Shown here in pieces: positions 14,495 to 19,513 of a DNA stretch of 41,384 nt (the first letter of the stretch is position 1; the number at the start of each line of letters is the position of its first letter). The position numbers were made by a program, and so were the translations under genes. The stretch is taken from contig LVBU01000072.1 in assembly GCA_001603185.1 (NCBI GenBank), positions 1 to 41,384 on the forward strand, written 5' to 3'. Origin of the DNA: Thermotogales bacterium Thermo_02 (GTDB lineage Bacteria > Thermotogota > Thermotogae > Petrotogales > Kosmotogaceae). The notes beneath the pieces are model-generated. The model saw only the letters and a list, made by a program, of their open reading frames with translations. It did no database searches and was not told the origin of the DNA.

Positions 14495-15109
14495 TTATTG
14501 GGCATTAGTTGTATTGCTCTTCAAAAGATGAGCAAGCGCGACGGCAGTTCCCAAAGGAAAGAGGTGTGTATCGTCTTCGAGATAGCCCGCCACTATCATG
14601 CCGCCAGAATCGACAATGTCTTTGGCTTCGATCTTTCGTTCAAGACTTTGAATAAGTAACTCCGCCGGAATGGCAATCAGAGCGCTAACCTCCTCCGGAT
14701 CGAGGTCAAACGGGCAATCATCTGCTATTTCGGCCTCAAAACAGGCAATGAAGTATGTTTTATCCTCCAGCCTGTTTCTATGGAAATCGATCATTTTGTA
14801 GATCATCTTTGGCGCAAAGAGGGAAAACTTCAGAATGTCGATTATTTCTCCTTCTGAGGCTACCAAATAGGTCTTTGCCGAATGAACTATTCTTACATTT
14901 CTTCCTATCTCCTCGATCGCTTCACGTTGTACCGCATCGATGAAGCTCTCTCCGGCTTCGCAATGACCGCCAACTCCGGCGAAGAATCTTTCACCAGGTT
15001 TAGTGAGGTGTTTTCTTCCAGATACGTGAAAGAGGTACAGGTCTCGGTGCTTCAAAATCAATCCGGTACCTCTCTCCGAGTCGAAGGGAATATATTCGTT
15101 CAGATCCAC
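14495..15109 (-). CDS. Nudix hydrolase
   Basis: Hydrolyses a nucleoside-diphosphate-linked compound. The full Nudix box G-x5-E-x7-REAIEEIG spans 48-69 of 204 residues; the catalytic Glu pair is intact. The N-terminal ERGTGLILKHRDLYLFHVSG is strand 1 of the fold. About 70 residues follow the domain without recognisable motifs (pattern DCPFDLDPEEVSALIAIP), so substrate prediction is not possible. The start is GTG with GAGGAGAG 7 nt upstream. It is separated from the VanX-like gene by 231 bp that contains no gene. A second Nudix domain occurs in the fusion gene about 3 kb away. Confidence 0.88.
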   Translation of the reverse strand: MDLNEYIPFDSERGTGLILKHRDLYLFHVSGRKHLTKPGERFFAGVGGHCEAGESFIDAVQREAIEEIGRNVRIVHSAKTYLVASEGEIIDILKFSLFAPKMIYKMIDFHRNRLEDKTYFIACFEAEIADDCPFDLDPEEVSALIAIPAELLIQSLERKIEAKDIVDSGGMIVAGYLEDDTHLFPLGTAVALAHLLKSNTTNAQ

Positions 15110-15340: not shown

Positions 15341-16363
15341 TTATCGACTCCGCTCGAGTTCTTCGAAGGTTATGTTTCCTATTGGATACCTCTCCCAGCC
15401 TTCGAAATCGAAGTGCCACCACTCTTCTTTGAGGGGTTGAAACCCAACGGTCGCCATAGTCTCTCTCAGGAGTTCCCGGTAGTATCTCTGGAGAGTTGAT
15501 CCACCCGGGAAGTCGATATAGGATCTTTCAGAGAACTCGTCGTATCCGCCCCCAAAGTCTAAGAATTCCCCCGTCTCCAGAGAATAAAGAGACACGTCAA
15601 CTGCACAGCCTCTGTTGTGCCTGGAACCCTTCTCTGGATCGGCGACGAATTCTTTCAACTCGTCGGGAGTCGCATCCCAGAACATCTTTGTCACATACCA
15701 CGGCCTGTAGGCATCATGAACGACGAGACCTAATCCTCTTTCATTCAAGATTTCACTTGCCTTCACGAGTGCATATGCCGCCGGTCTTTGAAGGAAGGCC
15801 TTTTCTTCAGTGTACAGAGAGCTTCCCATGAAGTTGTCCTCTCTTGCATAGCGTATGTCAAGCTTGATTTTTGGGTCAAGCATCTCGATATCCACAAGAT
15901 CCATAGGTAGCAATTCGCCAGCTTCTTCAGGTGGTCTCGCTTCAAGTGCTTGTGGCAGAAGTTCTTTCACTGGCCTTACCGGTGTGATTTTGAAAACATC
16001 TCCTCCTTCCGGTCCGTAAAACAGTCTTACGAAGACTTCTCGGTCGATCTTGCAACGTATTCCAAACCGCTCTTCATCTCTCTGGAAGACGGCCACCACG
16101 AAATTGAGAGGATTGGCTTCCAAGAGATAAGTATCGCTATGTATCTTGACACATTCTACTGGCATATAGTTTAATCCGTTGAAGCTTATCGTTCCTCGTG
16201 TGCTCTCAAAAAGGAACTCGAAGGAACCGTCGATCTCTCTGAAGAAGAAGTGAGACTCCGCGCCTTCATACCTGCCAAGAAGAAGCAACCAGTCGCCGGT
16301 TGCAGAAATCGCCAGTGCAGTCGCAACAATCAAGAGCAACAGTAAAGTCACCGTACGCTTCAT
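15341..16363 (-). CDS. Exported D-alanyl-D-alanine dipeptidase (VanX/DdpX-like) with extra N-terminal domain
   Basis: Zinc dipeptidase of peptidase family M15D. The C-terminal 190 residues carry all VanX landmarks: HDAYRPW at 216-222 (Arg220), SRHNRGCAVDV at 247-257 (ligands His249 and Asp256) and EWWHF at 314-318 (catalytic Glu314, ligand His317). Ahead of it are a signal peptide (MKRTVTLLLLLIVATALAIS) and about 130 residues of unrecognised domain, making 340 aa against about 200 for VanX. No vanH/vanA-like genes are adjacent, so a role in peptidoglycan D-Ala-D-Ala recycling or nutrition is more likely than glycopeptide resistance. ATG is preceded by GAGGTG. It lies 35 bp after the metallopeptidase gene. 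Confidence 0.88.
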   Translation of the reverse strand: MKRTVTLLLLLIVATALAISATGDWLLLLGRYEGAESHFFFREIDGSFEFLFESTRGTISFNGLNYMPVECVKIHSDTYLLEANPLNFVVAVFQRDEERFGIRCKIDREVFVRLFYGPEGGDVFKITPVRPVKELLPQALEARPPEEAGELLPMDLVDIEMLDPKIKLDIRYAREDNFMGSSLYTEEKAFLQRPAAYALVKASEILNERGLGLVVHDAYRPWYVTKMFWDATPDELKEFVADPEKGSRHNRGCAVDVSLYSLETGEFLDFGGGYDEFSERSYIDFPGGSTLQRYYRELLRETMATVGFQPLKEEWWHFDFEGWERYPIGNITFEELERSR

Positions 16364-16398: not shown

Positions 16399-17673
16399 TT
16401 AGCCATCGGGTTCACAGGCCTCTTCATAAATGTCATACCCTCTATCTGATTCTTCCAGTCTCGCTTTTACTATTCCAATGCAGGGAATCTCCACGAAACC
16501 TTCCGTTATAACAGGCTTAGAATCTGAATAAAAAACGATCTCATCAAATCGAAAGCCTTCCCCGGTCCTTCTAGCCCTGCTCTTCCCTGATATAACAACT
16601 GGAGTTCTATTGAATTCGGTGGCGAAGAAATGCTCGCTGAGTATGTATCGATCTTTCCACTTTATATTCAGCGGGTCAATTCCCTTGAGCGGGAATTCAC
16701 CTAGCAGAGCTATTCTGTATCCTCCGGAATTCTCGAAACTGTTGAATTCCTCATCTATGAGCTTTCTATATCTGGAGACAGCGTTTTCTGACTTCTCTAG
16801 AATCTCCTCCGGGATCTCTGCAACATTGAATTCAGCTACTTTTATGCCGGCTAGATCTCTGAGGAAGTCATAGATGTATCTCTCTGAATTCATGTAGTCC
16901 TTCTGCCATTGACTGTCTAGTTTATCAAGAACGAAAGCCATACACATCCCCGGAGCATAGCAGCTGAGTCTGAGTTTTTCAAGGTTTGCTTCAAGCTCAC
17001 CCATGTCTTTACTCTGCAAAGCAATCGAATAGGCCAGCGGCATTACCTCATAATCGCTATAGACCTTTGTCTCAACGTAAAGAGCCGTCCCTTCGATGCT
17101 TTCCTGTGCGAGTTCATAGTTCAAGGCATCGCCAGTAATCATGCGCCTGCGTTCTCTGAGACCTACAAAACTTGCCAGTCTCTCTCTAATATCCATTCTG
17201 GAACTCGAATACAGGGCTCTCAACAACTCACGCCTTTCGAGAAACCTTATAGCGGTGTTTTCCACAGTGAAAGGATATTCTAGAATCTGGAGCTCGTTGG
17301 CCCAGCGCCTTTCTCCTTTCAGCCTCTGATAGCCGTGATATGCTTCGTGAAAAATGAATGAAAGCAGTTTTCCGTAGGAGATAGATGACTCTAAGGTTGT
17401 CAGATACCATATGGCTACCTGTTGTCCTTCGAGCTCAATGGCTGTATTGCCATAGAATCTACTATCTCGTTTGCCTGTGAGAACACCATCCTGCTCTTTG
17501 AAACCATCAAGCACACCTGCATAACCTGTCAGAAAAACTCTTTCTTCATCATACAGAGCTATCGGTATTTTGGGAAAGTCATGCCAAAATTTCTTCCTGT
17601 AACTCTCATCACTCATCTCTTGCTGGAGTCTTTTCAGGGTAGAAATAGTGTTCTCATAATCTGTGTAATTCAT
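16399..17673 (-). CDS. Putative HExxH zinc metallopeptidase, unrecognised family
   Basis: I do not recognise this 424-aa family. It has HEAYH at 109-113 in the context LSFIFHEAYHGYQ, and about 80 residues later AQESIEGTALYVE (Glu191, Glu195), where an EG-(T/L)-A segment would supply the third zinc ligand as in gluzincins. There is no signal peptide or membrane segment, so it is probably cytoplasmic. The start at 17673 (MNYTDYEN) is preferred over 17715 because GGAGG lies 7 nt upstream. It sits 35 bp before the VanX-like peptidase gene, suggesting co-transcription. The C-terminal third (about 300-424) shows beta-rich character without motifs. Peptidase activity is inferred from the zinc motif alone. 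Confidence 0.75.
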   Translation of the reverse strand: MNYTDYENTISTLKRLQQEMSDESYRKKFWHDFPKIPIALYDEERVFLTGYAGVLDGFKEQDGVLTGKRDSRFYGNTAIELEGQQVAIWYLTTLESSISYGKLLSFIFHEAYHGYQRLKGERRWANELQILEYPFTVENTAIRFLERRELLRALYSSSRMDIRERLASFVGLRERRRMITGDALNYELAQESIEGTALYVETKVYSDYEVMPLAYSIALQSKDMGELEANLEKLRLSCYAPGMCMAFVLDKLDSQWQKDYMNSERYIYDFLRDLAGIKVAEFNVAEIPEEILEKSENAVSRYRKLIDEEFNSFENSGGYRIALLGEFPLKGIDPLNIKWKDRYILSEHFFATEFNRTPVVISGKSRARRTGEGFRFDEIVFYSDSKPVITEGFVEIPCIGIVKARLEESDRGYDIYEEACEPDG

Positions 17674-17817
17674 GAGACGGCCTCCTCGGCTGGCTGCTTT
17701 GTGGACTCTAATCACTATTCTACAAAAAAAACATCCGCATAGAAAAGAATGGAGAGAGCTATACGATTACATATCCCGACATTCAGCAAACTGCCTTTCA
17801 GCTTCTTGAATCCTATA

Positions 17818-19092
17818 TCAGCCTTCTACACTAATCAGATAGCCCCTGATCACTTCGAGTCTTTCTCGCATATCCGGGAATCTCTTGTACTCGTCATCAA
17901 TCAGCGATAAATCGCTCAGATCGATCCACTTCACTTCGGAAATTGTGTAGTAGTTTTCGTCCACATCTTCCGGTTCCGATCCCGGAGATGGTTCTGAAGA
18001 ACCGTCATAGACGAAATGGAACATTCTCGCCGAAGAGTACAGAATGTTACCGGGCAGCTCGATCTCTTCGATCATTCTCTGAGGTTCAATATCGAGTCTT
18101 GTTTCCTCGAGAATCTCTCTCTTCACCGCTTCTTCATCGGTCTCGCCCGCCAGTTTTCCTCCACCTGGAAGAGTCCATTCGTCCGGTCTGCCGTCCTTGC
18201 GGCTATGCTTTATGAGCAGTACCTTCATCCCGTCAGAGACAACACCCTCAAGCCTGTAAGATCTCTCAATTACTCTCTCGACAATTGCTCTCCTCGCGCC
18301 GGCAAGATCCCTGTCTCCAATCTCTTGTGCAATTACTGAGGAGAAGGAGGCCATTTTCTGAAGGGCGGTCCTCAACGAATCGAAATCCAGCCCCGCAAAG
18401 CATCCAGAAAGGTTCTCATACTCTTCTCTACTCAAGAACCTCTCCAGAAGCCTCGGTGAATAGAGATGGTCGGTTTGACCGTGTATAATCAAGAGCAATC
18501 TTGCCAGATAATTGAGATTCATGCTGTGGAGCGTGCTGGCCCTGAAAAGATCTCTTCTATTGAGAACGCCCCACTCCAGGATGATTCCATTTGCAAGTTC
18601 GTAGAAGTTCTCCTTGAACGCCACCTCTCTATCTATTGCGAGCGTGGTCTTGCAGAACTCCTCGATCTTTCTTCTGAACGCACCGGATTTGTCAACCAGA
18701 ACTGTTTTCTCTATCTCCCCGGGAAGCACTACGCCCTTCCAGCTATCGAGAATGGAGATCTCACTCTCCGAATGGAAGTGAAATTCTCCCCTGACAAAGA
18801 ATTCGGAAAAGACCGCGCTCTTAACGCCAAAAGAGTTGGTGAAATAGAACCACATCGGAGCCACGTCTCTAACCCACTCTTCGTCGTTGAAGCCTGCCAA
18901 ATAATCATCTTTTATGAAGAAGTAGAACTCGATATCGGAAAACCTGTCAAAGTCATCTCTGGTAAATGATCCGTAAGAGACTATCGAGACGATTCTGTCG
19001 TCTGCTCTTGCGGCATTGACTATCCTGTTCAGAATCTGAAGGTTTTTGGGGTTCTCGTAAGGTTCATTTGCGCTTTTCTGCTGTATCTCCAT
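17818..19092 (-). CDS. Lincosamide nucleotidyltransferase-like domain fused to Nudix hydrolase domain
   Basis: A 424-aa two-domain protein. Residues 1-280 resemble Lnu(F)/Lnu(B)-type antibiotic nucleotidyltransferases throughout. GS at 41-42, then SDIEF (Asp53, Glu55), gives the metal-binding GSx10DxE motif, followed by WVRDVAPMWFYFTNSFG and the hallmark RGEFHF at 101-106. Residues 281-424 form a Nudix domain whose box runs from Gly311 to Leu333 (G-x5-E317-x7-REILEETRL); the usual Gly near the end of the box is Arg332. ATG at 19092 is preferred over GTG at 19101 because GAGGTGAG lies 4-5 nt upstream of it. The domains would make and break nucleotide-phosphate bonds respectively. The substrate is unknown; resistance is not demonstrated. 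Confidence 0.85.
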   Translation of the reverse strand: MEIQQKSANEPYENPKNLQILNRIVNAARADDRIVSIVSYGSFTRDDFDRFSDIEFYFFIKDDYLAGFNDEEWVRDVAPMWFYFTNSFGVKSAVFSEFFVRGEFHFHSESEISILDSWKGVVLPGEIEKTVLVDKSGAFRRKIEEFCKTTLAIDREVAFKENFYELANGIILEWGVLNRRDLFRASTLHSMNLNYLARLLLIIHGQTDHLYSPRLLERFLSREEYENLSGCFAGLDFDSLRTALQKMASFSSVIAQEIGDRDLAGARRAIVERVIERSYRLEGVVSDGMKVLLIKHSRKDGRPDEWTLPGGGKLAGETDEEAVKREILEETRLDIEPQRMIEEIELPGNILYSSARMFHFVYDGSSEPSPGSEPEDVDENYYTISEVKWIDLSDLSLIDDEYKRFPDMRERLEVIRGYLISVEG

Positions 19093-19513
19093 TTGCCTCA
19101 CCTCATTTTGCAGACCATCCGGCCGGAACTCTCCTCCAGTAGCCGAGGAGTGTTTCCAGATGCTTCAAGCACTTATGCATTTAGCTGTCCTTGTCATAGC
19201 TACTCTAACCGGTAGGTAGTTCCATCCAAAACATGATAATTATAAACTGGCAGGTATCTCTAATCATAAGCCTCAATGATTCGAGATTGACTGGAATCTC
19301 GAAGAGCGGAACGCAAATTGCTACGATTCTTCCGCTCTTCCTCTTATCCTTTAGCAATCTCGGTACTTGTTGAGGTTGCTGCCTATCGAGTCTTCTTAGT
19401 TCAACTGCTCAAGTTCTCGCATTCTACATATTCTTTCTGTTTTGCTTTTCAACTGGAGAATTAGTATACTTTGTAGTATAATACTTTACAGTATAATAAG
19501 AGGGGTGTTAACG
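19093..19513. other. Intergenic region with overlapping perfect inverted repeats
   Basis: About 420 bp between divergent genes, with no gene recognised. Two perfect stems overlap: TTCGAGATT/AATCTCGAA (19280-19288 with 19295-19303, loop 6) and GAAGAGCGGAA/TTCCGCTCTTC (19301-19311 with 19330-19340, loop 18). They share the bases 19301-19303, so only one can fully form in RNA. This could be a relic of a palindromic repeat element or a regulatory RNA switch. Operator-like dyads follow at 19466-19494. Confidence 0.6.
19466..19497 (+). promoter_or_regulatory. Two tandem operator-like dyads overlapping -10 boxes of the ATPase gene
   Basis: ATACT-TTGT-AGTAT (19466-19479) and ATACT-TTAC-AGTAT (19481-19494) are two 14-bp dyads with identical arms, centred 15 bp apart. 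Each runs into a TATAAT hexamer (19477-19482 and 19492-19497). The second TATAAT is 17 bases ahead of the ATG at 19514. A regulator binding either dyad would block the promoter. No good -35 box is seen, which suggests either an activator-dependent or a weak promoter. Confidence 0.55.

Follow-up and report, generated by a model that had tools for sequence, protein, structure and literature searches.

A fusion gene on the minus strand

The window, that is, the whole stretch of 41,384 nucleotides analyzed from Thermotogales bacterium Thermo_02 (contig LVBU01000072.1), contains at positions 17818..19092 a gene for a protein of 424 amino acids, in which a LinB-type nucleotidyltransferase is joined to a Nudix hydrolase. 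The first-pass annotation had placed the reading frame at these same limits and left its strand unstated; the frame lies on the minus strand, where a single ORF runs uninterrupted from the ATG at 19092 to the stop at 17818. Just 5' of this ATG, a likely ribosome-binding site is present (GAGGTGAGG, 19096..19104, minus strand), and a GTG at 19101 falls within it. Orthologs with the same architecture are found in six other genomes.

The nucleotidyltransferase half

The nucleotidyltransferase part spans residues 11-275 (18268..19062, minus strand) and consists of a catalytic domain and a LinB-like helical C-terminal domain. A profile of the fusion proteins aligned these residues with residues 18-282 of LinB (PDB 3jyy) over 265 amino acids (E 7.3e-38); the window protein by itself, without the profile, matched the same structure with an E-value of 4.1e-25. 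The nearest NCBIfam families are Lnu(H) (5.8e-31) and Lnu(F) (2e-30), followed by Lnu(G) and Lnu(B). The scores of 91-108 bits are far under the cut-offs of 450-540 (at best 107.9 vs. 540, for Lnu(H)); hence, this part is a relative of these enzymes and not a named Lnu. Weaker Pfam matches were obtained with Adenyl_transf (PF04439; residues 19-75) and LinB-like_C, the latter on its own remaining below its cut-off (21.2 vs. 27 bits). An Lnu(F)/Lnu(B) pattern had been read earlier in residues 1-280: both NCBIfam and the LinB profile match bear this out, and the domain searches lead again to LinB/Lnu relatives, not to another family.

The GSx10DxE motif, also named in the first-pass annotation, occupies residues 41-55 (18928..18972, minus strand) and, in the alignment with Lnu(B/F/H/I), covers the positions of LinB Ser29, Ser39, Asp40 and Glu42. 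The second motif named there, RGEFHF, is found at residues 101-106 (18775..18792, minus strand), is invariant in 10 out of 10 aligned proteins and includes the proposed catalytic base, Glu103 (LinB Glu89). Arg179 and Arg184 (18541..18558, minus strand) align with LinB Arg165 and Arg170. In LinB, these two arginines extend to the nucleotide of the other subunit, and Glu89 is the proposed catalytic base (PMC4631478). All the LinB residues listed here are kept in the fusions, the one exception being Asp in place of Glu42 in G018, the most distant fusion. The fusions show the signature of the LinB-type fold: GSx10D[ILV][DE] with a third carboxylate, and a helical domain with both arginines aligned. 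In the helical domain, the fusions have invariant residues of their own, e.g., EW at 173-174 and HxYSPRLLE at 209-217, at which the Lnu proteins differ.

The AlphaFold model of the fusion has a mean pLDDT of 57.6, with values below 50 over much of the Nudix half, and this low confidence limits its interpretation to the transferase half. In the comparison with LinB proposed earlier, LinB 3jyy was indeed the top Foldseek match of this low-confidence model (E 3.5e-14, TM-score 0.63 by target length). In the tree, the transferase parts of the fusions group together as a single clade next to Lnu(B/F/H/I), with a support of 99/99; the exact root is unsure because of long branches.

Compared with LinB/Lnu(B), Lnu(F), Lnu(G), Lnu(H) and Lnu(I) (3jyy, 3jz0), the homology extends over the whole length of residues 11-275, including the nucleotide-binding and catalytic residues. 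On the contrary, the identity is only 25-33%, the invariant helical residues are different, a Nudix domain is added and the gene is chromosomal in Thermotogota. The ANT(6)/AadK-type streptomycin adenylyltransferases (PF04439) belong to the same nucleotidyltransferase superfamily, with the weak match mentioned above, but they form a separate clade: the ANT(6)-like proteins of the phylum branch apart from the fusions and are unfused.

The Nudix half

The Nudix domain extends over about residues 284-401 (17890..18243, minus strand), and the Pfam NUDIX match (residues 286-401, E 1.1e-14) reaches 55 bits against a cut-off of 21.1. The Nudix box, Gx5Ex7REUXEEx(R332)L, lies at residues 311-333 (18094..18162, minus strand), in agreement with the earlier description of a C-terminal Nudix domain with a nearly complete box and a Gly-to-Arg change at 332. 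The acids E317, E326, E329 and E330, as well as R325, are invariant across the fusions: the metal-binding acids and the arginine are all kept, and only the second glycine of the box is changed. This position is never Gly in the fusions (Arg here, Cys or Asp in the relatives), and its replacement in every one of them could lower the Nudix activity.

Among the solved structures, a MutT-type protein (3id9), an Ap4A hydrolase (3i7u) and Nudix hydrolase 1 are the closest relatives in the profile search. The fusion shares their fold, box and metal-binding acids, and is distinguished from them by the replaced glycine, the attached transferase and a conserved motif of its own, PxPGxEPED. A standalone copy of the same Nudix domain was also sought, and only distant Nudix proteins were found (best E about 5e-14).

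Distribution and selection

The fusion is present in 7 of the 103 Thermotogota genomes, namely in 6 of the 10 genomes of the window's genus, probably Mesotoga, and in one of a sister genus of the same family. The six other proteins are 39-72% identical to that of the window, the sister-genus copy (G018) 41%. The copy in G026 is interrupted, within its nucleotidyltransferase half, by a stretch of unread bases. A genome scan for close relatives returned one locus, in Kosmotogaceae bacterium UBA1373, of the same family. All Lnu(F)-type matches in the two carrier genera are fused, and the only other weak Lnu(F) matches in the phylum (G077, G082 and G085) are unfused ANT-like proteins. No homologs encoded as two separate genes were found among the 103 genomes, so that the fusion stands. 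Two ANT(6)-like genes of other Thermotogota (L061 in G032 and L062 in G016) contain in-frame stops and are likely decayed.

No record covering 80% of the fusion protein was found among plasmids (535 records with a match) or phages. Viral contigs with Lnu relatives, three recognized by alignment and one by pattern, are all devoid of the Nudix half. The unfused Lnu-type genes on L048, L049 and L052 are ~29-33% identical to the window protein; those of L048 and L049 are Lnu(F)-like, and the one of L052 adjoins a phage portal-like gene.

The pairwise dN/dS values, about 0.07-0.18 in the nucleotidyltransferase half and 0.06-0.14 in the Nudix half, show purifying selection on both; in many pairs dS approaches saturation, and in three Nudix pairs it is undefined. 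The literature yielded no account of a Nudix domain attached to a LinB-type transferase. The architecture is a new combination of two known families, apparently restricted to this lineage, as judged from a search that covered the 103 genomes of the phylum and the plasmid, phage and viral records and hardly reached other phyla.

Genomic setting

The fusion gene stands alone, in at least four chromosomal settings and with no constant neighbor. An ABC-transporter operon adjoins it in three genomes, another place is common to two genomes, and the window copy and the sister-genus copy are each in a further, different setting. The transporter operon is also present without an adjoining fusion (G028 and G023). 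When settings are compared, DNA similarity is lost roughly where the gene begins and ends. Such a picture is in keeping with relocation or transfer of an accessory gene by itself.

In the window, the gene directly downstream of the fusion (16399-17715, minus strand) encodes a 438-amino-acid protein with an HEAYH motif of the HExxH type; Pfam gave no match for it, and none of the nine other genomes of the genus contains a relative. Further on, a Peptidase M15 protein resembling D-Ala-D-Ala dipeptidases (15341-16363, minus strand; E 2.3e-30), with a signal-like N-terminus, is encoded close to two Nudix-containing genes. A second, separate Nudix protein is encoded at 14495-15109 (minus strand), about 3 kb from the fusion. 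In the sister-genus genome (G018, L027:4060-5926), a downstream gene for a HAD-type phosphatase overlaps the end of the fusion by 29 bases, an arrangement seen once.

Function of the fusion protein

We estimate at about one in two the probability that the protein is a bifunctional accessory enzyme, the halves of which share a nucleotide pool or side products and do not reverse each other. From the retained LinB residues and the invariant Nudix acids and arginine, both halves look catalytically competent. The N-terminal half, probably a LinB-like dimer, would move a nucleoside monophosphate onto the hydroxyl of a small molecule and release pyrophosphate; the donor is most likely Mg-ATP, in which case AMP would be transferred. 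In LinB, the counterpart of the helical domain helps to form the drug-binding cleft. As this domain carries invariant residues peculiar to the fusions, a non-lincosamide acceptor is quite possible. The Nudix half probably retains activity as a pyrophosphohydrolase, dependent on Mg and of the MutT/Ap4A-hydrolase type. Its putative substrate is a nucleoside polyphosphate or an NDP-X compound; substrates are hard to predict from membership of the Nudix family. The side products shared by the two halves would be unwanted NTPs or dinucleotide polyphosphates that the transferase forms or binds. The kept residues, the selection, the conservation in two genera, the Nudix relatives and the position of the clade beside Lnu argue for this bifunctional enzyme; against it, no conserved neighbor indicates a pathway, and the glycine of the Nudix box is lost in all the fusions.

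A true resistance enzyme for lincosamides or similar ribosome-targeting drugs, with an incidental or stabilizing Nudix half, appears rather unlikely. The closest named families of the N-terminal half are indeed Lnu enzymes, and a gene that is patchy in the genus, solitary and found in several chromosomal settings is a frequent pattern among accessory resistance genes. However, the identity to Lnu is about 30%, the NCBIfam scores stay well short of their cut-offs, the helical domain has invariant residues other than those of Lnu proteins, and the Nudix half is itself under purifying selection. A literature search on the antibiotic response of the genus returned nothing useful. A role in conflict or signaling is highly improbable: the transferase would modify a cellular target or a phage-derived molecule, and the Nudix half would degrade an ADP-ribose or nucleotide-type signal. 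It would accord with the ADP-ribosylglycohydrolase gene that follows the fusion by 17 bases on the same strand in G026 (L026:8684-10770), a possible operon, and with the match of the Nudix domain to the PADLOC candidate PDC-S07 (E 1.4e-9). The former occurs in one genome only, however, the latter is confined to the common Nudix core, and no defense genes were recognized adjoining the window copy. As for an artifact joining two genes, the genome of the window is a fragmented assembly with an estimated contamination of 6%, but the same join recurs as one ORF across two genera, in seven genomes that include one made up of a single contig. This rules out an artifact for practical purposes, and the joined halves of the first-pass annotation are genuine.

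That annotation had also proposed that the Nudix half clears the pyrophosphate or reverses the modification. To our knowledge, Nudix enzymes do not usually act on free pyrophosphate, which argues against the former. A modify-and-undo cycle is chemically unlikely: the expected product of a LinB-type enzyme, acting on a hydroxyl, is an AMP-O-R phosphodiester, normally left uncut by Nudix enzymes, which cut NDP-X diphosphates (PMC9503650). A precedent for one half making an adduct and the other cleaving it is NadM-Nudix (NCBIfam PRK05379), in which nucleotidyl transfer is likewise N-terminal and the Nudix domain, C-terminal in the same chain, acts on the product of the adenylyltransferase (PMC9503650). 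The NadM transferase, however, is of the HIGH superfamily, unrelated to the polymerase-beta-type LinB. The fusion is not a NadM-Nudix protein: its N-terminal half matches LinB and not an NMN adenylyltransferase of the HIGH superfamily, and the PRK05379 models match its Nudix half only (residues 283-336, E 0.015-0.046). A similar cycle would need a phosphate as acceptor, since its product must be an NDP-X diphosphate, and nothing in the analysis points to a phosphorylated acceptor; it is improbable. Slightly more doubtful still is that the two halves act on a new small molecule as a self-contained cycle or a proofreading unit, perhaps with the adduct on a phosphate and the Nudix half removing or editing it. 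If true, we know of no earlier case of a small-molecule transferase of the polymerase-beta type that carries its own eraser.

The maintenance of both halves of the fusion by selection suggests that each chemistry benefits the other in these bacteria, which are far removed from the hosts in which lnu genes occur clinically. The fusion offers a single protein for asking what the environmental relatives of Lnu act on, and whether the reaction is improved or limited by a partner that cleaves nucleotides.
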